Assembly: GCF_005239135.1 (NCBI RefSeq)
Contig: NZ_QKNX01000002.1
Location: 434,001-498,000, forward strand
Direction of reading: 5' to 3'
Source of the DNA: Natronomonas salsuginis
GTDB lineage: Archaea; Halobacteriota; Halobacteria; Halobacteriales; Haloarculaceae
DNA length: 64,000 bases
Under the pieces are notes generated by a model that did not search any database, was not told the DNA's origin, and was given only the letters and a program-made list of their open reading frames with translations. A program made the position numbers and the translations under genes. This document shows, in pieces, positions 32,070 through 41,529 of the stretch. How positions within the stretch are numbered: position 1 is the stretch's first letter; each line of letters starts with the position of its first letter.

Positions 32070-32708
32070 TCAGCGCCAGTTCGACTCGTGTCCAGACGCG
32101 TCGATTCCGTTGGGCAGATACAGATGTGCGAGCGATGCGAGCCCGAAGGCGGCGGCGATGCCGAGCGCGACGGCGCTGCCCGGAACGGAGCCGAACGGGC
32201 CAACGCCGATCCAAAACAGGAGCGTCGCGGCGACGCACAGCCCCGCCAACAGGAGGTACAGCCGGCTCCAGAAGCGCTCGCGCTCGGGGGCGAACGTCAT
32301 GTAGCGGAGCACGTCGTCGACCTCCCCGGAGAGTTCGATCGATCCCCGCTGGGAATCGAACTTGACGACGCCCAGCCTGTCGAGTTTCGGCAGGTGCGTC
32401 TGGCGCAACGCCGTGTACACGCACTTTCGGTCGCCCGAATCGAGCCGATCGGGCGACGTGTCGTTCTCCCACGCAGCGACCTGGTCGACGAGCGCGCGAA
32501 AATCGATCGTCCCGCTGTCAGCGTGTGCTCTGAGGTATCGGAGGACCAATCGGCGGCGCTCGTTGCTCAGGATCTCGAAGATCTGCTCGCGGGTCCGCGT
32601 CCCGTCCGAGCGATCGGTGAACGCCAGCGGGTCGTCCCGTTCCGGTCGATCGGCGTCCGCATCCCGCGGGCCGTCGCGTAGTTCCGCCCTACTCGCCACG
32701 AGAGCCAC
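32070..32708 (-). CDS. DUF7344-type winged-helix regulator with two membrane helices
   Basis: A 212-residue protein. The winged helix starts at QIFEILSNERRRLVLRYLRA, continues with LVDQVAAWENDTSPDRLDSG and KCVYTALRQTHLPKLDRLGV, a signature shared with the proteins at 33503, 35539 and 39760. Two membrane helices follow (LYLLLAGLCVAATLLFWIGV and SAVALGIAAAFGLASLAHLY). It looks like a membrane-anchored DNA-binding protein. Translation appears to begin at GTG 32708. It opens the run of secretion-related genes that follows. Confidence 0.75.
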   Translation of the reverse strand: MALVASRAELRDGPRDADADRPERDDPLAFTDRSDGTRTREQIFEILSNERRRLVLRYLRAHADSGTIDFRALVDQVAAWENDTSPDRLDSGDRKCVYTALRQTHLPKLDRLGVVKFDSQRGSIELSGEVDDVLRYMTFAPERERFWSRLYLLLAGLCVAATLLFWIGVGPFGSVPGSAVALGIAAAFGLASLAHLYLPNGIDASGHESNWR

Positions 32709-32960
32709 CCCACAGCGGAGAGTATGTCATGCGTCGTGTTCCCCAAGAGGGGGTAGTGAGCAGTATCCATTAGTTAGCCGCGAGCTACATGATTGAAATA
32801 TATCATTTTCTGCGACGGCGTGTACACCGAGAGACAGCCGTTCGAGAGATGCAGCTGAACGCCAAAAGACGCACACTCCGAGGCGGTAAACACGTACTAA
32901 TCGAAGATAATCACGTATTAAATACAGTTTTACACCGATGACTATCCAATGCGGTGAGAA
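32709..32960. other. Intergenic stretch between two regulator genes
   Basis: About 250 bases with an AT-rich patch (GAAATATATCATTTTCTG near 32793-32810) and no coding signal. It holds the promoter of the regulator at 32070-32708. Confidence 0.4.
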
Positions 32961-33503
32961 TCATCGACGACGGTACGTCCAGGCCGTCGGACGGTGGGCC
33001 CACCACGCGTATCCGATCGAGGTGACGAAGGTGGTACCGACGCAGCAGCCGACCAGCCAAAGCGCCGGTATCCCCGCGAGCGGCGCCACGTCGAGCCGCG
33101 CGGCGAGCACGACGACGATCCAGACGAACGACTGAGCCAGAAACGCCCGGTTCCACACGCCGTGCTCGGTTCGAGTGGCGGCGGCATTTCGAAATCGGTG
33201 ACCGCGATCGGTGAGTGCGATCCGGCGCGTGTCCGCGTCGTAGGCCACCACCCCGGCGTCGATCAGCGCCGGAACGTGCGTCAGAGACAGCGACGCGTAC
33301 ACGGTGGCGTGGTGATCCAGGTCGGGCGGGACGGCGTCCAGCTCCCGTTCGCGGATCGCGACCCGATCGACCAGTTCGTCGAACGCCATCGGTCCCGCCT
33401 GGGAGAGACAACGGACGACGGCGCGATGACGGCGGCGAGCGATCGACCGAGTCTCGGCTTCCTCGCGCGGCGAGACGCCCGATCGTAGTCGATCGATCAC
33501 CAT
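32961..33503 (-). CDS. Divergent DUF7344-like winged-helix protein with membrane helices
   Basis: A 180-residue protein with a winged-helix core: RRRHRAVVRCLSQAGPMAFD, ELVDRVAIRERELDAVPPDL, ATVYASLSLTHVPALIDAGV. The last is a diverged form of the VYTALRQTHLPKLD signature in neighbouring regulators. Two hydrophobic helices follow (AFLAQSFVWIVVVLAARLDV and ALWLVGCCVGTTFVTSIGYA). It is likely a membrane-tethered transcription regulator. ATG 33503 gives MVIDRLRSGVSPREE. Confidence 0.65.
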   Translation of the reverse strand: MVIDRLRSGVSPREEAETRSIARRRHRAVVRCLSQAGPMAFDELVDRVAIRERELDAVPPDLDHHATVYASLSLTHVPALIDAGVVAYDADTRRIALTDRGHRFRNAAATRTEHGVWNRAFLAQSFVWIVVVLAARLDVAPLAGIPALWLVGCCVGTTFVTSIGYAWWAHRPTAWTYRRR

Positions 33504-33684
33504 CGCTCTATTCGCCCCGTGAGGGGGCGATGGCGGACGAGCAGGGCAGGTTGGCGACTCGTTTTGGACATGGGGCTACGGCTCCTATCGACGGAGATCC
33601 AGTTAACTAATCGCGAGTTGTTCGTCGACAGCGGATCGTTACGCGTCGAAGTAGGACTGGCACAGACCGGAGACCTCGGGAACG

Positions 33685-34830
33685 TCACCACCAGCCCGTC
33701 GGGGACTCGCGTTTTCGCTCGCGGGTTCGGACCGGTCCGAACCCGGTGACGAACAGAACGGGGACGACGAACACGGTCGAAATTACGGCGGTGACCGCGC
33801 TCATCGCGAGCCAAGGGTGGATCGCGTGCAGGGACAGGATGACCGACGGCGGGAGGACCACGAAGTACCGGTACTCGGCGTACGACCGGACGTACGCACC
33901 CGTCTCCGGCGGGGCCGTGACCGTCACCGTCACATTCGCTGACTCGCCGCGCGAGAGCCGCACGTGATCTGGCGGGCCGGTTTCGATCCCGCCGCTGGTC
34001 GGTTCGAGCGTGGTGACGACCGGGATGACGCCGCCGTTGTAGAACGTGTCGTTCCATTGTCGTTGTTCGCCGGCCGGGATGACCGTCGGCCGCTCGGAAT
34101 CGAAGCTCGCGCTGACGATATCGATCCGTTCGGTCCCGGACATGGCCCCCATCGTCCCCATCGACACCGTGGCGATGAACAGAATCGAGGCGAGGAGGAT
34201 CGTTCGGCCGTCGTAGACGTGCGGTCGGGAGCGCGACCGCGACCGGTCACCCCGCGGCCGACCCGAGCGCTCCTCGAACAGCCCGATCGCGTAGACGAGG
34301 GTTCCGAACCCGAAGAGCAGATACGACAGCCCCTGCGTCCCGAGAAGCGCGCTGGTCCCGAGCGTGGCGGCGAGCCCCTGTTGCGCCCGTCCGAGCCCGT
34401 CCTGTAGCCCCATCACCGCGGTCCCGAGATGGGGGATCACGACGACATCGCCGTCGACCCGGAGCGCCTTCGCCTTGATCTGGCCGTCGGAGACTGGCGG
34501 CTCCGTGTCCGCTTGGTCGGTTACGGTGTTGGCGTCGCCCTGCGTGACGTATCCCTGGTTGGTCTCGCCGACGACGCGGTGGGTCGTGAGCCCGCCGCCG
34601 TGGAGGTTCCGTGCCTCGAACGTGACGACGTCGCCGCGCTCGACCGGGCCGGCGACCGCGGCCGGGATCGCGACGAACCCGTCGCCAGCCTCCATCGTCG
34701 GCGCCATGCTCCCGGTTTCGACGAATGAGAGCAACACCGGCGTTCCGTAGAACTGCCCGACGAGAATCGCGGCGACCGACAGGAGGAGCCCCAACTCGAC
34801 GGTGTAGACGGCCGCGGATCGTAGATTCAT
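33685..34830 (-). CDS. ER-type (SipW-like) signal peptidase I with extra external domain
   Basis: A 381-residue S26-family peptidase. The nucleophile Ser41 is in VETGSMAPTM and His84 in GGLTTHRVVGE; a conserved GDAN follows near 98-101. His in place of Lys marks the ER/archaeal type to which Bacillus SipW belongs. The N-terminal membrane anchor is VELGLLLSVAAILVG. Unusually, two more membrane helices (TILLASILFIATVSMGTM and SAVTAVISTVFVVPVLFVTG) enclose an external beta-rich domain of about 90 residues. It lies just upstream of the DUF1102 genes and probably processes their signal peptides. Confidence 0.85.
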   Translation of the reverse strand: MNLRSAAVYTVELGLLLSVAAILVGQFYGTPVLLSFVETGSMAPTMEAGDGFVAIPAAVAGPVERGDVVTFEARNLHGGGLTTHRVVGETNQGYVTQGDANTVTDQADTEPPVSDGQIKAKALRVDGDVVVIPHLGTAVMGLQDGLGRAQQGLAATLGTSALLGTQGLSYLLFGFGTLVYAIGLFEERSGRPRGDRSRSRSRPHVYDGRTILLASILFIATVSMGTMGAMSGTERIDIVSASFDSERPTVIPAGEQRQWNDTFYNGGVIPVVTTLEPTSGGIETGPPDHVRLSRGESANVTVTVTAPPETGAYVRSYAEYRYFVVLPPSVILSLHAIHPWLAMSAVTAVISTVFVVPVLFVTGFGPVRTRERKRESPTGWW

Positions 34831-34870
34831 TGCTCGTGTGGCCTCAAAGGACCCGCGAATCCTTGGGTAA

Positions 34871-35539
34871 TCACCGATTACCCGCGGTCGGTGCGTCCGA
34901 ATCGGAATCCGAATCCGACGCCAGATAGTGGATCTCTGCGGGCTTTTCGGTCCGACCGAGTCGCTGTCTCGTCATGTGGTAGTGGTGTGCGGCCGCGAAC
35001 ACCGCGACGGTCACGAACATGAATATCCCCAAGGCGATGTCCGGCAGCGTCGACAGCGGCCACAGCCCGATCCAGGCCGCCGTCATGACGGCGAGCCCGA
35101 CCACCGAAAGGCCGAGGTAGTATCCGCTCCACGGGATGTCCCGCCCTTCGACGAGGTCGACGTAGATATCCATCGCCCCCATGGCGATCGTCGGTTCGAC
35201 GACCCCGCTCCGATCGTCGAACTCGATCACGCCCGCCTCGGCCATCTGTGGCAGGTGGATCTGTTGGAGCGCCGTGTACACGCGTTTTCGTTGCGCACAG
35301 GAGACGGCGTGGAGCTCGATCTCGTTCTCCCAGGCGGCGATCTGCTCGGCGAGCGTCCCGATCCCGACCGGCGCGTCCTCGCGTTTGAGGAAGTGTATCG
35401 CGTACCGCCGCCGCCGGTTCGAGAGCACGTCGAACAGTTCGTCTTCAGTGAGCGCGGGGGAGACGTGAGCGTCCGACGTGCTGTCGACGGATTCGACGAC
35501 GGTCTCGACGGCCTCGATCATACGATCACCCGTCCTCAT
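34871..35539 (-). CDS. DUF7344-type winged-helix regulator with membrane helices
   Basis: A 222-residue protein. The winged helix has DELFDVLSNRRRRYAIHFLK, LAEQIAAWENEIELHAVSCA and KRVYTALQQIHLPQMAEAGV. Two membrane helices follow (YYLGLSVVGLAVMTAAWIGL and IALGIFMFVTVAVFAAAHHY). A serine/aspartate-rich tail ends it. It lies 40 bases upstream of the signal peptidase on the same strand, so it is likely in one transcription unit with it, and is divergent from the DUF1102 genes it may control. Starts at 35539 or 35521 are possible. Confidence 0.77.
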   Translation of the reverse strand: MRTGDRMIEAVETVVESVDSTSDAHVSPALTEDELFDVLSNRRRRYAIHFLKREDAPVGIGTLAEQIAAWENEIELHAVSCAQRKRVYTALQQIHLPQMAEAGVIEFDDRSGVVEPTIAMGAMDIYVDLVEGRDIPWSGYYLGLSVVGLAVMTAAWIGLWPLSTLPDIALGIFMFVTVAVFAAAHHYHMTRQRLGRTEKPAEIHYLASDSDSDSDAPTAGNR

Positions 35540-35876
35540 CAGAGGGGTATTAGTATTGACAGCGTAGCCGAATCGGCGTTGGAGACAACCGATCGTTGTC
35601 GCTCGACCGAATTCGCAAATCGAGGCAGAGCGGGACGGGGTTCGCCGAAATCACGTCGGAATCACGATGGACGGCACACCACATAGACAGGGTGTCCGTA
35701 CGCTCACGAAAGCGACCCGTTGTTCGCGAGCAACCAGTCGTTGTTCGCGAGCAACCAGTCGTTGTCGGCGTTCAGACGGCTCAATACGAGGGTGGATACG
35801 GTCATAGAGCAGAGTGCGGCGTTCCCCTCTCGCGGCGCGGTACAGGGGGTGGGAACGCACCCAACGGAGTACAACA
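35540..35876. promoter_or_regulatory. Divergent regulatory region before the first DUF1102 gene
   Basis: About 340 bases between divergent genes. It contains a 21-base tandem repeat (35719-35760) and then a block from 35761 that recurs almost unchanged upstream of the third DUF1102 gene (38724-38837). I see no separate gene. The repeated block ends at the start codon, so it probably holds the promoter and leader. Confidence 0.45.
35719..35760 (+). repeat. 21-base tandem direct repeat, two copies
   Basis: GTTGTTCGCGAGCAACCAGTC occurs twice head to tail. The unit contains a near-palindrome (GTTGTTCGCGAGCAAC), so it could be a regulator binding site upstream of the DUF1102 gene. It is absent before the second copy of the duplicated leader. 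Confidence 0.65.
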
Positions 35877-36150
35877 ATGCAACGACGCAAATTCGTAATC
35901 GGCATGGGGGCGCTCGCATCCGGCGCGGCCGCCTCCGTCGGTACCGGCGCGTTCACCGCCATGCAGGCGGACGGACGCGAAGCAAACATCAACGTCGTCA
36001 ACGACGAAAGCGCGCTTATCGGCCTCAAGGCCGGTGACACCGATCTCGTCACCGGCACCAGCGACGGCCAGCTCGCGATCAACTTCAACCTCGACGACGC
36101 CGGCGACGGCGTCAACCCGAACTCCACCTACCAGGTCGGTGGACTCGGCG
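35761..36150 (+). repeat. Duplicated leader plus 5' coding block, copy 1
   Basis: From GTTGTCGGCGTTCAG through the first ~90 codons of the DUF1102 gene this DNA is almost identical to 38724-39110, including the non-coding leader. The rest of the two genes has diverged. Confidence 0.85.
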
Positions 36151-36608
36151 GGTTCGACACGGGGAATCTCCAGTACCTTCCGGGCGATCCGACCGCGAGC
36201 CCGAACGTCGAAAGCGTGGCCATCGACACGCAGACGCCCATCATAGACGAGCACGCGTTCATGGTCATGAACCAGTCGGGGGCCGAACAGCAGATCGAGG
36301 TCGCCTACGAGGCGAACGAGGAGTTCCCGGATGACGCGCAGGTCTACCTGGTCGCGTTCTACCCCGAGGGATCGGGAACGTCGTCCCAAGAGGAGGGCCT
36401 GGCCGTCGGCGACGTGACCGGGGAGAACCCCAAATCTGCGAGCATTATCTACGCCGACCAGCAGTACTCGGACCCGATCGGAGCCGGCAACAGCTTCTAC
36501 GTGACGATCATCGTCAACGTCGGTGACGCCGACCCGGGCACCGATCTCGGCGGGCAGATCACCGTCCGCGCCGGAAGCCACGACGACTTCACCAACGCGG
36601 ACGCGTAA
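35877..36608 (+). CDS. Secreted DUF1102-type protein, copy 1
   Basis: A 243-residue secreted protein. The signal region MQRRKFVIGMGALASGAAAS-VGTGAFTA has a twin-Arg near the start and the short GTGAF end typical of SipW-dependent signals. The mature part is beta-rich and acidic, with TYQVGGLGGF, FMVMNQSGAEQQIEV, NSFYVTIIVNVGDAD and the closing GGQITVRAGSHDDF. It is likely an exported structural or matrix subunit. It heads a run with the second DUF1102 gene 18 bases downstream. Start ATG 35877 is chosen because its first codons match the other copy exactly. Confidence 0.8.
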   Translation: MQRRKFVIGMGALASGAAASVGTGAFTAMQADGREANINVVNDESALIGLKAGDTDLVTGTSDGQLAINFNLDDAGDGVNPNSTYQVGGLGGFDTGNLQYLPGDPTASPNVESVAIDTQTPIIDEHAFMVMNQSGAEQQIEVAYEANEEFPDDAQVYLVAFYPEGSGTSSQEEGLAVGDVTGENPKSASIIYADQQYSDPIGAGNSFYVTIIVNVGDADPGTDLGGQITVRAGSHDDFTNADA

Positions 36609-36626
36609 CGGAGCAACGGACCACTC

Positions 36627-37265
36627 ATGAACAGACGCGACATCGTGCTCGGGCTCGGCGGGCTGATCGGCAGCGCCGGCGTTCTCGGTACGGGGGCGTT
36701 CACCGCGAACGAGTTCGAGCGGGAGTCGAGCATCTCGGTCGTCGACGACAGCGCCGGCTTGCTCGGTTTGGTTCCGAACGCGTCGATTGCGGGCGTGATG
36801 ACCAACGGTGGCGCGCTAACGATCGCTATCGACGAGGAGAACGGCGGTGTGAACGTCGACTCGGTGTATCAGTTCGGCGCGTTCGTCGACGGCGTGGGCG
36901 ACCTCACCGACGGGAAGTTCACGCTCGTCACCGACGACAACCCGGCTGACATGAGCGACGGGCAGGCTGGCCTCGAATCGGCGTTCGCCATCGTGAACCA
37001 GTCGGGGCAAACGCGAGACGTCACCGTCGACTTCGAGCTGAACGACGACATCGAGAGCGGTTCGCAGACAGAATACGCCTTCGAGCTCCAGCGTTCGATC
37101 GGCGGTAGTGGCCAGCGAATCGGCATCGCGACCAGTCCGATCGACGGCGACGTGACGTTCGGGATGGAGCCAGGAGACTCGGTCGGCGTCTCGTTCATCG
37201 TGAACGCCTTCGGTGGCTCCATTGGCGACGCGATCGACGGAAGCCTCGCGATCAGCGCGAACTAA
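36627..37265 (+). CDS. Secreted DUF1102-type protein, copy 2 (diverged)
   Basis: A 212-residue protein. Signal region MNRRDIVLGLGGLIGSAGVL-GTGAFTANEF again has twin Arg and the GTGAF end. After it comes RESSISVVDDSAGLLGLVPN, the block shared with its neighbours. The beta-rich body has VDSVYQFGAFVDGVG, FAIVNQSGQTRDVTVDFELN and a C-terminal VSFIVNAFGGSIG. It lies 18 bases after the first copy and is probably co-transcribed, yielding two related exported subunits. Confidence 0.78.
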   Translation: MNRRDIVLGLGGLIGSAGVLGTGAFTANEFERESSISVVDDSAGLLGLVPNASIAGVMTNGGALTIAIDEENGGVNVDSVYQFGAFVDGVGDLTDGKFTLVTDDNPADMSDGQAGLESAFAIVNQSGQTRDVTVDFELNDDIESGSQTEYAFELQRSIGGSGQRIGIATSPIDGDVTFGMEPGDSVGVSFIVNAFGGSIGDAIDGSLAISAN

Positions 37266-37440
37266 CGCAGCACCTTTTTTCGAGAGCGCGGGATCGAACG
37301 GCGAGTCGACCGAGTACCGGGGAGATCTGATCGATCGCCCCGGCAGAAGCAACTTCGAATGCGGAACGTGCCAACGTTTCGGTCGAAATCGCCCGCCTCA
37401 GCGCGCTCAAACGCGACCCGGTCGTATTCGGCCAGATTGC

Positions 37441-37448
37441 TTGTATAC
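37441..37448 (+). promoter_or_regulatory. TATA box of the lipoprotein gene
   Basis: TTGTATAC, 27 bases before ATG 37471; it decides the start, since the frame is open further upstream. Confidence 0.5.
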
Positions 37449-37470
37449 ATCGTCGGCGAATACAGCGACA

Positions 37471-38547
37471 ATGGTCCCCCAGAGACGCGACCTGTTGAAG
37501 ACGTTGACCGCACTTCCGGTAGCGACGGTCGCCGGTTGCACCGGCGTTCTCGATGACGGCGCGGTACCGGACTACGCCGAATCGTTGCCACGCGATGGGG
37601 CCAACGACGACGATGGTGTCTTTTTCGTTCATAGTAACGCTGAGTGGCTCCGTGGATTCAACGGAGAAGAGGAACTCCCCTACGCCGAGGAGTTGCCCGA
37701 TGCGTTCGATGTCGACATCGATCCGGATACGCCGCCCCTCGACGCCGATCCGCTGATCGCGTACCCGTCGGCCGGCCTCGTGCTCGGAGCGCTCGGCATC
37801 GGATTCGGACTCGTACCCTACGGGTTCGGCGATCTCCTTCTCGGTGGACTTGACGAGGAGGTCGCTCCCAACGACACGAAGTCGGAGCAAACATCCGAAA
37901 CGGATTCGGACGTGAGCGGGACCGTACGGATCGATTCGATGCTCCTCGTCGACGGGGTCGGCATCTTCCGTGGTGAGTTCGACGCTCGAACCGTCGTGGC
38001 TGCCGCCGGCGAGTTCGAACCCGCCGGCGAACAGGAAGAGTTCGACATCTACGAGGGGACTGACGATGGATTCCTGGGGACGGAAGAGCTGGCGTTCGCC
38101 GTCCGCGATGGCGTTCTCGTGACGCGGCTCGATGACGGCGCCGACATCGGCGCGGCTCTCGGCGCGATCGCCGGTGACGCCGAACGCCTGAACGATACCG
38201 ACGATGGGGGCTGGGCCCTCACGGAGGCAGGCCAGGGCAACGTCACGCTGGGTGTCTGGGGCGTCGACCCGGAGCAGGCCACCGAGCAGGAGACCGATCG
38301 CGAACTGGTCGACACGCAAGATGTCTTCGGAGACGCCGACGGGCTCGTGAGTTCGCTCACACTCGATCCCGAAGAGGGTGTCGGAACGATCACCGCCGTG
38401 TTCCCGGCCGAGCAGACGCCACAACGGGCCGCCCTCGAGAGTCGGATCGGGACGTCCGCCAGCACCCGCGAGATCGAAATCGACGGTACCAGGGTGTCGA
38501 TCGCTGGAATCTGGCGGGTGCCTGATGAGACGAACGACGATTCCTGA
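37471..38547 (+). CDS. Predicted lipoprotein of unknown function
   Basis: A 358-residue protein. MVPQRRDLLKTLTALPVATV-AGCTGVLDDG combines a twin-Arg (QRRDLLK) signal with a lipobox ending in Cys, so it is a Tat-exported lipoprotein. The mature chain is very acidic. It has a hydrophobic stretch (SAGLVLGALGIGFGLVPYGF) and a C-terminal domain with EGVGTITAVFPAEQTPQRAA. I do not recognise a family. Its place between DUF1102 copies suggests a cell-surface role in the same locus. Confidence 0.7.
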   Translation: MVPQRRDLLKTLTALPVATVAGCTGVLDDGAVPDYAESLPRDGANDDDGVFFVHSNAEWLRGFNGEEELPYAEELPDAFDVDIDPDTPPLDADPLIAYPSAGLVLGALGIGFGLVPYGFGDLLLGGLDEEVAPNDTKSEQTSETDSDVSGTVRIDSMLLVDGVGIFRGEFDARTVVAAAGEFEPAGEQEEFDIYEGTDDGFLGTEELAFAVRDGVLVTRLDDGADIGAALGAIAGDAERLNDTDDGGWALTEAGQGNVTLGVWGVDPEQATEQETDRELVDTQDVFGDADGLVSSLTLDPEEGVGTITAVFPAEQTPQRAALESRIGTSASTREIEIDGTRVSIAGIWRVPDETNDDS

Positions 38548-38567
38548 CAGAGAACCAATATTTTTAG

Positions 38568-38618
38568 CGTGAGATCAGCGTTCGCGCCGGCAGCCACGAC
38601 GAGTTCGGCCCGAACTGA
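38568..38618 (+). pseudogene. C-terminal fragment of a fourth DUF1102 gene
   Basis: The frame reads REISVRAGSHDEFGPN followed by a stop, matching the ends GEIVVRAGSHDEF and GQITVRAGSHDDF of the intact copies. Nothing else of the gene remains. It lies between the lipoprotein and copy 3 and shows that a further copy was lost by recombination. Confidence 0.8.
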
Positions 38619-38723
38619 ACCGGCACCGATCCCACCGATGTTCCGCGCGTTCGGATCGCTACCGAGCGGACTCCGCAGACGATGGGACACGACAACGGGT
38701 CGTTACCGCACGCACAGTCAGTC

Positions 38724-39110
38724 GTTGTCGGCGTTCAGACGGCTCAATACGAGGGTGGATACGGTCATAGAGCAGAGTGCGGCGTTCCCCTCTCGGCGCG
38801 GTACAGGGGGTGGGAACGCATCAAAGGTACTACCACTATGCAACGACGCAAATTCGTAATCGGCATGGGGGCGCTCGCATCCGGCGCGGCCGCCTCCGTC
38901 GGCACCGGCGCGTTCACCGCCATGCAGGCGGATGGACGCGAAGCAAACATCGACGTCGTCGCCGACGAGAACGGCCTCATCGGCCTCGAAGCCGGCACCA
39001 CCGATCTCGTCACCGGCACCAGCGACGGCCAGCTCGCGATCAACTTCAACCTCGACGACGCCGGCGACGGCGTCAACCCAAACTCTACCTACCAGGTCGG
39101 CGGCCTGGGT
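38724..39110 (+). repeat. Duplicated leader plus 5' coding block, copy 2
   Basis: Near-identical to 35761-36150, including about 115 bases of non-coding leader and the first ~90 codons. The last bases before the start codon and one CG-rich spot differ. Confidence 0.85.
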
Positions 39111-39572
39111 GACGTCGAGGACCTCCACTGGCTCCTCGACGGCAGTTCCAATGTGCCGACGGTCGATCAGATCGCGATCGACACGCAGACGCCCATCAAA
39201 GACGAGCACGCGTTCAAACTGCTGAACCAATCGGGCGAGGACCGGGCGGTCGAGCTGACCTACGTGCCGGACGAGGATCACGACAGCCTCCCCGGCGACA
39301 CGACAATCTACATGATCGCGGTCACCGACGACGACAACGCGCCCTCCTCGGAAACCAGAGAGGAGCTCGCGACGGCCGCGAGCAAGGACCGCGACGGAAG
39401 CATCCTGTTCACCGACGACGCGAAGTGGTCGGCAGATCTCAAATCCGGGAGCAGCGCCTACGTCACCATCCTCGTGAACGTGGGCGACGTCGATCCCGAC
39501 GAGACGGACCTCAGCGGTGAGATCGTCGTGCGGGCGGGCAGCCACGACGAGTTCACCGAAGACGATCTCTGA
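38838..39572 (+). CDS. Secreted DUF1102-type protein, copy 3
   Basis: A 244-residue paralogue of the gene at 35877-36608. Its signal region and first ~90 residues are nearly the same, while the rest has diverged (DQIAIDTQTPIKDEHAFKLL, SAYVTILVNVGDVDPDETDL). It ends GEIVVRAGSHDEFTEDDL. High DNA identity in the 5' part with divergence afterwards suggests recent duplication or gene conversion followed by selection on the exposed part. It should be exported and processed like the other copies. Confidence 0.8.
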   Translation: MQRRKFVIGMGALASGAAASVGTGAFTAMQADGREANIDVVADENGLIGLEAGTTDLVTGTSDGQLAINFNLDDAGDGVNPNSTYQVGGLGDVEDLHWLLDGSSNVPTVDQIAIDTQTPIKDEHAFKLLNQSGEDRAVELTYVPDEDHDSLPGDTTIYMIAVTDDDNAPSSETREELATAASKDRDGSILFTDDAKWSADLKSGSSAYVTILVNVGDVDPDETDLSGEIVVRAGSHDEFTEDDL

Positions 39573-39759
39573 TCGGCACCGACGACGATCGGCGATCGGG
39601 GACGGACGCCTTCGTTTTTCCACCATCGCGGAGCTGCACGGATGGCGCGAGGTAGTTATCGAGTTCCTAGACGCACCGACACCGACACAGGCTGTGATTA
39701 CCTTTACCCACAGCGGTCGTGCGTCGTGATATCGACGTCGCAGGAGCCGACGGACGACA

Positions 39760-40371
39760 GTGATGATCATGGATTCGACGACACGTTCGAAACGGGGCGG
39801 AAGGACCGGAGCGCCAGCCGGAACGCCGGAGAGACCCTCGCGCCACGACGTCTTCGACGTGTTGCGCAACCGGCGTCGCCAGTGGCTCATCCAGTATCTC
39901 CGGCGGAACGGCGGGGACGGCCCGTTCGAACTCGGAGAGCTCGTAGAGCACGTCGCGGCCCGGGAGACGGGGACGACTCGGGCGGAGATCACCGCCGCCG
40001 AACGCAAGCGCGTCTACAACGCGCTTCGACAGACACACCTGCCGAAACTCGACGACGCCGGCATGGTGACGTACGACCGCGAGGCGAACCGAATCGAGTT
40101 CGCGGCGGCGACCCGTTACGCCCACCGATATCTCGAACGCGCGCCCGGAACGGACGTGCCGTGGCACCGGTGGTATCTCGGCCTCTCGGTCGCGGTGACC
40201 GCGGTGATCGCCGCACATTGGCTCGAGATCGCACCGCACGGCGGCGGCTCCGGCAGCACGATCGCCGGCATCGTCCTCTCGCTCTTCGTGATCACGGCCG
40301 TCGTCCACGCGGTCGAGACGCGGACGGTACGCGGACGGATCGGCGACCGACTGGAGGTGACCAACGGGTGA
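39760..40371 (+). CDS. DUF7344-type winged-helix regulator with membrane helices
   Basis: About 200 residues. The winged helix has DVFDVLRNRRRQWLIQYLRR, ELVEHVAARETGTTRAEITA and KRVYNALRQTHLPKLDDAGM, as in the regulators at 32708 and 35539. Two membrane helices follow (YLGLSVAVTAVIAAHWLEIA and GIVLSLFVITAVVHAVETRT). ATG codons at 39760, 39763 and 39769 are all possible. Its stop overlaps the start of the secreted protein gene (TGATG), so regulator and exported protein are coupled. Confidence 0.77.
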   Translation: MMIMDSTTRSKRGGRTGAPAGTPERPSRHDVFDVLRNRRRQWLIQYLRRNGGDGPFELGELVEHVAARETGTTRAEITAAERKRVYNALRQTHLPKLDDAGMVTYDREANRIEFAAATRYAHRYLERAPGTDVPWHRWYLGLSVAVTAVIAAHWLEIAPHGGGSGSTIAGIVLSLFVITAVVHAVETRTVRGRIGDRLEVTNG

Positions 40372-41009
40372 TGTACAGACGAATCACCGCAGGCGCGTTC
40401 GCGTTCGCGCTGGTGCTGGCGCTCGTCGCGAGCGGCGGCTTTAGCGCGGCGGGAGTGGACAGAGACGCCTCGATCACCGTCGTCGGCGACGACCGAGCGG
40501 CGGTCGGCGTACAAGCGTGTCACCTCCCGAACCACGCGGGTCGGGGGGTGAGCGGCGGCGACAATGGCGATCCATCCGGGAACGAAAACGGCGGTCAGGC
40601 GAACCGCGTCACGCCGATCAGCGTCGAGATCACGAACCGTCTCGGAGCCGAACTCACCGTCCGAGAACTCACGGTGAACGGCGCGATCGTCAACAATCGA
40701 CCGTACGCGATGACGATCGCTCCCCACGGGAGCGAGCGCGTCACGGTTCCGGTTCGGCACGAAGCGAGCGAGGTGACGGTGGTCGTCTCGGCGAACGGCG
40801 TGAGCACCCGGGTAACGGTCTCAGAGATCAGCAGCGACGGGTGTCCGTTCCACGTGGCCGCCCCGCCGGTCACGGAAGGTGAAACGGGCGGCGACGAGTC
40901 GGGTGGAGCCAACGGAGGAAACGGCGGACACAGTCGAGAGAACGGTAGCGGTCAGGGCGGCGGTCAAGGCGACGACACCCGAAACGGCGATCCGCCGGGC
41001 AACGACTAG
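40371..41009 (+). CDS. Secreted DUF1102-related protein with Gly/Asn-rich tail
   Basis: A 212-residue protein with a signal peptide (MYRRITAGAFAFALVLALVA-SGGFSA). The first mature block, VDRDASITVVGDDRAAVGVQ, matches the RESSISVVDDSAGLLGL block of the DUF1102 proteins, so it is a distant relative. A beta-rich middle (VEITNRLGAELTVRELTVNG) follows. The last ~50 residues are Gly, Asn, Ser and Asp-rich and look disordered. Two Cys (VQACHLP, DGCPFHV) could pair. It is coupled to the upstream regulator gene. Confidence 0.65.
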   Translation: MYRRITAGAFAFALVLALVASGGFSAAGVDRDASITVVGDDRAAVGVQACHLPNHAGRGVSGGDNGDPSGNENGGQANRVTPISVEITNRLGAELTVRELTVNGAIVNNRPYAMTIAPHGSERVTVPVRHEASEVTVVVSANGVSTRVTVSEISSDGCPFHVAAPPVTEGETGGDESGGANGGNGGHSRENGSGQGGGQGDDTRNGDPPGND

Positions 41010-41029: not shown

Positions 41030-41529
41030 TCAGACCGTCTCGACGTCCGGGTCGATCCCGGCGTCTCCCTCGCGTAGTTTGAACTTCTGAACCCTGCCGA
41101 TCGGGTTCTTCGGTAGCTCGTCGACGAAGTAGTACTTCCGCGGCCGCTTGAACTCGGCGACGGCGTCGCTCTCGACGAAGTACGCCTCCAGATCGTCGGC
41201 CGCGAGATCGTCGTCGCCTCAGCGTCGTTGACGATGTACTCGATCTCGTCGGCCGGGAGCCGGAAGTTCAGCGGCGTGAAGACGGCGCCGATCTTCGCGC
41301 AGGCGTACACGGAGAGGGTCATCTCAGAGCCGTTGTGCAGCACCGTCGCGACACGGTCGCCCTTCTCGACTCCCAACTCGAGTAGCGAGTTTGCCAACCG
41401 ATTGACCCGGTCGTTGAACTCCCGATAGGTCCATCGCTGCTCCTTTCGAGGGGAGACGATCGCGTCGGCATCGGGGTAGCGTGCGACGGTTTGCTCCAGC
41501 GTGTCGCCGATCGTAGCGTAGTGTGCCAT
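41030..41529 (-). pseudogene. Acyl-CoA synthetase (AMP-forming) with a large internal deletion
   Basis: On the minus strand the gene begins MAHYATIGDTLEQTVARYPD, continues through ELGVEKGDRVATVLHNGSEM to PLNFRLPADEIEYIVNDAEA, a normal N-terminal ~105 residues. Near 41215 it jumps, out of frame, to the far C-terminal end FVDELPKNPIGRVQKFKLRE, whose PKNPxGxxxK contains the conserved AMP-ligase Lys. About 1.1-1.2 kb is missing, including the P-loop and the main adenylation motifs, so no active ligase remains. It is the only acyl-CoA-ligase sequence in the window. Confidence 0.85.

Follow-up and report, generated by a model that had tools for sequence, protein, structure and literature searches.

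Tat-fimbriae ("tafi"), built from pilins exported by twin-arginine translocation (Tat), were described in haloarchaea in 2025 (Galeva et al., iScience, as cited in PMC12687288), and archaeal bundling pili are reported to be structurally related to the fibre protein TasA (PMC9674648). Here, we analyzed a locus of Natronomonas salsuginis at positions 32070–41009 of a 64,000-nucleotide stretch of contig NZ_QKNX01000002.1 (the window), and conclude that it is very probably a Tat-fimbria locus of a divergent kind. Its ten genes comprise R1, R2, PEP, and R3 on the minus strand and F1, F2, a Tat lipoprotein gene, F3, R4, and X on the plus strand. A sequence-only reading had previously recognized an ER-type peptidase, secreted proteins, a gene fragment, and four membrane regulators within 9 kb, all of which we recovered in place, and had interpreted them as a haloarchaeal equivalent of the SipW/TasA system of Bacillus. 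The secreted fibre subunits and the dedicated peptidase of that interpretation stand, but the closest system is the Tat-fimbria, and no TasA or camelysin match was obtained. Tat-fimbriae are already known as a system, and the locus is a divergent variant of them rather than an undescribed SipW/TasA equivalent. Two of its features look new: a predicted MSP/PapD-like outer domain in the peptidase PEP and the homogenization of the 5' parts of F1 and F3.

The three pilin genes F1 (35877–36608), F2 (36627–37265; a second pilin type), and F3 (38838–39572; an F1 paralogue with 63% amino acid identity overall) lie on the plus strand with intact reading frames. Motif and profile searches revealed twin-arginine (RR) and GTGAF signal regions in all three products, as the sequence-only reading had reported, and one profile common to them (E 8.4e-30 for F1). 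A profile built from 76 pilin relatives and searched against all PDB sequences gave one strong match, the pilin of 9P0A (E 8.1e-20), with nearly the whole profile aligned. This entry is titled "Structure of Natrinema sp. J7-2 Tafi pilus". Its modelled chain contains 188 residues, the last numbered 215, which places the mature start at F28, corresponding to F26 in F1, provided that the model is gap-free.

The AlphaFold2 model of mature F1 (predicted local distance difference test, pLDDT, 74.9; predicted template modelling score, pTM, 0.74) was compared with known folds using VIA. The top three folds were 7UEG (Z 8.3), 7PNB (Z 7.8), and 9P0A (Z 7.4), followed by a row at 6.7; Z-values near 7–8 are modest if taken alone. 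These entries represent the Pyrobaculum bundling pilus, the Sulfolobus thread, and the Tafi pilus, respectively. Because the top three folds are all archaeal donor-strand pili, and one of them is also the sequence match, we regard the pilin assignment of F1 as firm. The bundling-pilus (AbpA) fold class anticipated by the sequence-only reading was the best match of the F1 model, while TasA was not among the matches listed.

The other fibre systems share less with the locus than the Tat-fimbriae do. The AbpA bundling pili are the best fold match, but belong to another archaeal lineage and showed no sequence similarity at E up to 10. The Sulfolobus threads (Saci_0406) are donor-strand fibres processed by signal peptidase I and represent the second fold match, but they are Sec-exported, and no sequence similarity was found. 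The Bacillus SipW/TasA/TapA system likewise places an ER-type peptidase beside fibre subunits and follows the donor-strand fibre principle. It differs in its Sec export and its camelysin-family subunits, with no subunit sequence link found. It is highly improbable that the locus encodes a matrix-fibre system of the TasA/camelysin type proper, with a SipW orthologue as its maturing peptidase. The weak match of PEP to SipW (E 5.7e-6) and the TasA-related bundling pili (PMC9674648) as best fold match of F1 speak for it; however, the export signals are of the Tat type, not Sec, PEP has an extra domain, and the Tafi pilus is closer by sequence. Furthermore, the pilins gave no Pfam or NCBIfam match to the TasA or camelysin families at E up to 1, and TasA was absent from the PDB search with the pilin profile at E up to 10.

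The reference for the Tat-fimbria comparison was locus L024 of genome G083, in which TafA (250 bits), TafC (568), TafE (225), and TafF (582) all score above their cut-offs. The gene order is TafF, TafE, TafA, DUF7344, TafC, peptidase. The peptidase is homologous to PEP (E 4e-67) and the DUF7344 regulator to R3 (E 2e-46); judging by the gene order, these two genes may be TafB and TafD. Like Tat-fimbriae, the N. salsuginis locus has pilins that carry GTGAF, are Tat-exported, and belong to one sequence family; it also shares the peptidase family, the DUF7344 regulator, and the placement of a TafC-like gene immediately after a DUF7344 gene. It differs in its three-pilin cassette F1-F2-F3, its four regulators instead of one, and the lack of a lectin domain in X, and neither full-score TafA, TafC, or TafE nor any TafF was found on the N. 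salsuginis side. The N-termini of F1–F3 match the NCBIfam TafE and TafA models. F1–F3 are linked over their full length to TafE-type proteins and the solved Tafi pilin, whereas their homology to TafA itself rests on the cleavage-site region: in a profile comparison between the pilin alignment and the reference-locus TafA, the aligned part was limited to 17 residues at the cleavage site.

The association of peptidase and pilins was surveyed across 145 haloarchaeal genomes. A TafA-type match was present in 110 and PEP in 119 (both in 109, TafA-type only in 1, PEP only in 10, neither in 25; Fisher p 6e-19), with several of the 10 PEP-only genomes resting on weak, generic matches. The Fisher test ignores shared ancestry, so that the p-value overstates the case, but co-location is independent of this: the best TafA-type match lay within 10 kb of a PEP gene in 61 of 69 genomes. 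Within 8 kb of PEP, the pilin family occurred in 64 of the 79 named loci and DUF7344 in 61, and the pilin genes per 2-kb bin away from PEP numbered 33, 69, 29, 15, and 4. PEP genes occur at three loci of the N. salsuginis genome, all of which also hold a pilin-family gene and an R3-type regulator, and one orphan pilin gene lies on contig C7. The co-occurrence of the peptidase with pilin genes proposed by the sequence-only reading was thus observed (109 of the 110 TafA-type genomes carry PEP), and the best fold match of F1 was the AbpA bundling pilus, one of the fibre proteins with which it had suggested a comparison, so that neither outcome it had named as refuting arose.

This assignment was computed from homology, fold, conserved neighbourhood, and co-occurrence, and several observations weigh against it. 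No TafF match was obtained in the N. salsuginis genome, in a search that had no positive control, and the locus has no DUF5305 gene. F1–F3 score far below the NCBIfam TafA and TafE cut-offs (20–39 bits versus 190 and 155), the F1 model is of moderate confidence, and its Foldseek E-values are weak. In addition, locus L155 (genome G008, from another haloarchaeal family) carries the F1-F2-F3 cassette with no peptidase nearby. However, the 9P0A pilin also falls below the same two cut-offs (54 and 77 bits), and therefore these do not define the tafi system. The L155 cassette in turn indicates that the peptidase can act from elsewhere; none lies within the 18 kb of L155, and the G008 peptidase is on another contig.

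There is only a very slight chance that F1–F3 are secreted monomers or cell-surface decorations with a pilin fold that do not polymerize. All data on N. salsuginis are predictions, and both the homogenized F1/F3 pair and the shortness of X could be signs of decay or of a changed function. Against this, a family member forms a solved pilus (9P0A), several subunit types are encoded side by side in intact frames, and the cassette recurs in another haloarchaeal family.

For the Tat-fimbria of N. salsuginis, we infer cleavage by PEP, donor-strand assembly, a role for X, and regulation along the following lines. F1, F2, and F3 would fold in the cytoplasm and then be exported by Tat. The membrane peptidase PEP would cleave GTGA/F after GTGA, releasing the N-terminal strand, and the subunits would polymerize outside the cell via donor-strand exchange. 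X could be a minor, probably terminal subunit (a putative fibre tip), and expression may be controlled by the DUF7344 membrane regulators.

PEP (33685–34830, minus strand) is an ER/archaeal-type signal peptidase with four membrane segments and an extra C-terminal extracytoplasmic domain. Its match to archaeal signal peptidase I (TIGR02228; E 1.1e-13) reached 51.3 bits against a cut-off of 51.85. Ser41 and His84, the residues pointed out by the sequence-only reading, are invariant among 13 aligned sequences, as are Asp99 and Asp105. The second extracytoplasmic domain (33814–34167, minus strand), a predicted MSP/PapD-like beta-sandwich (AlphaFold2 pLDDT 90.9), is located between membrane segments 3 and 4, and should share a side with the catalytic site. 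It is kept in 76/76 aligned relatives and in the TafA-locus peptidase. SipW is not known to have a PapD-like domain. In VIA, nearly all of the best 50 rows were MSP, ASH, or PapD-like (best Z 7.6), and the usher-pathway chaperones PapD, FimC, and Caf1M matched at Z 5.2–5.7. Foldseek returned a probability of 1.00 for several MSP-type rows, and a profile of the domain gave chance-like matches only when searched against the PDB. The predicted MSP/PapD-like fold class is well supported by these comparisons of the model. The domain may also function as a chaperone, but the Z-values below 8 speak to fold class only, and PEP carries only one of the two domains of such chaperones.

In their account of the Sulfolobus thread structure, the authors report finding no clear chaperone in the thread gene cluster (PMC9715654). 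For the chaperoning and assembly of archaeal donor-strand fibres, PEP, which travels with nearly every haloarchaeal tafi-type locus and has a chaperone-like outer domain, offers a concrete, testable candidate.

The second feature concerns the outer pilin genes of the cassette. The 5' tract of F1 (35756–36125, plus strand), covering the leader, the signal peptide, and the first part of the mature protein, is homogenized with that of F3 (38719–39086, plus strand), with 82 nucleotides at 98% and 300 at 91% identity. L155 shares the cassette: its F2 counterpart is 62% identical, and its two outer genes reach 51%. In the window and in L155 alike, the two outer genes match each other at 100% over the signal peptide, at 89–92% over the next stretch, and at 44–56% beyond. 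Third-position identity at codons for the same residue showed the same pattern: in the 5' part, it was 97/88% within the window and 90/79% within L155, but 38–56% between them, and in the last part it was 48% in the window, 41% in L155, and 40–45% between. Thus, the 3' parts of the outer genes are about as old as the lineage split, and the 5' parts were homogenized separately in each genome.

Partial gene conversion between F1 and F3 fits these data best, since the 5' parts are near-identical and the 3' parts fully diverged, independently in two genomes. An unlikely account, which would apply to the F1/F3 pair only, is that the pair arose by recent duplication and that the 3' half then changed fast. 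The high identity in one block with a sharp edge near 35756 and 38719 is compatible with it. Nevertheless, in the 3' part, identity at silent sites is as low between the copies in one genome (48% and 41%) as across genomes, while in the 5' part both genomes separately show 79–97% within versus 38–56% between. Partial homogenization of this kind was otherwise seen only in L155: in a scan of 203 pilin pairs from 89 loci, an identity >85% over 100 nucleotides was genuine in the L155 pair only. Two other rows were overlapping reading frames of the same DNA, and F1/F3, at 84.7% over the whole alignment, fell just under the threshold.

The homogenized part encodes the export signal and cleavage site together with the N-terminal strands; in fibres of TasA, it is the N-terminal strand that acts as donor (PMC9674648). 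Selection might have held the assembly part of F1 and F3 constant and let the exposed part vary, and the cassette provides a natural experiment on which half of a Tafi pilin is under assembly constraint. It is conceivable, though on balance doubtful, that PEP is a peptidase–chaperone fusion whose PapD-like domain binds the pilin during cleavage, covers its groove, and hands it to the fibre, and that the assembly halves of two pilins are meanwhile held identical by partial gene conversion as the exposed halves drift apart. If true, the fusion would give archaeal donor-strand pili a route that is tethered to the membrane and needs no usher.

The four membrane-anchored regulators described by the sequence-only reading all exceeded the Pfam DUF7344 cut-off and carry two hydrophobic C-terminal segments each. 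They are R1 (32070–32708, minus strand; E 4.7e-28), the divergent R2 (32961–33503, minus strand; E 1.1e-14), R3 (34871–35539, minus strand; E 9.7e-30), and R4 (39760–40371, plus strand; E 4e-28). R3, the type present in the TafA–TafF locus, lies 40 nucleotides upstream of PEP and is divergent from F1. Between R3 and F1, the palindromic 14-mer TTGTTCGCGAGCAA occurs in two adjacent copies (35720–35754), which end at the start of the F1/F3 similarity and are absent before F3. It occurs in only two places genome-wide at <=1 mismatch, its count in the window was reached in 0/100 shuffles, and its hairpin z is -3.7. These sequence features make the pair a candidate operator.

X (40371–41009, plus strand) overlaps R4 by one base. 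The sequence-only reading had described it as a related secreted protein with a Gly/Asn tail, and it indeed has a cleavage-site region of the F1–F3 kind, behind a Sec-type signal. It is a short TafC-like protein (TafC model, E 2.6e-4; its L155 counterpart, E 2e-15); where TafC has a lectin-like domain detected by Pfam, X has the Gly/Asn-rich tail. X directly follows R4, as TafC directly follows its DUF7344 gene in L024, and the DUF7344-then-X order was found in about 27 further loci, mostly with a 4-nucleotide overlap.

The Tat lipoprotein gene (37471–38547, plus strand; start best placed at 37471) was considered as a tafi component and rejected. Homologues occur in 20/145 genomes, among them G098, which lacks both peptidase and pilins, and none lies near the peptidase in other loci. 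We therefore regard the gene, which the sequence-only reading had counted as part of the system, as a bystander that probably landed in the pilin array. Between it and F3, the fourth fragment of that reading proved to be the leftover 3' end of an F1-type pilin gene (38568–38618, plus strand; REISVRAGSHDEFGPN*), with 87–89% identity to the 3' ends of F1 and F3 (E 4.8e-9).

The name DUF1102, given to the three secreted proteins by the sequence-only reading, did not hold: this Pfam model matched neither F1–F3 nor any other protein found in the N. salsuginis genome. The model itself works, matching (together with CARDB) a long Sec-type protein beside the peptidase in L104 (L104:7659–9074), a kind of gene missing from the window. 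L155 (5349–11595), a tafi-type locus, encodes a related long Sec-type protein in addition to the F1-F2-F3 cassette, a TafC-like protein, and a DUF7344 protein. In many loci, a DUF5305 membrane protein is encoded directly downstream of the peptidase (e.g., L060:11147–12307); three such genes are found elsewhere in the N. salsuginis genome. A tafi-type locus, L029 (9544–13920), encodes a 1458-residue protein with a FGFSSFAADRGV-type signal region, possibly a giant adhesin. At the C4 locus of N. salsuginis (L020:3325–7139), additional secreted proteins have a different cleavage region, TAGADF, and may form another pilin subfamily. Adjoining the end of X, an AMP-binding acyl-CoA ligase gene (41200–41529, minus strand) is cut by the right edge of the locus, leaving its first 110 or so residues.

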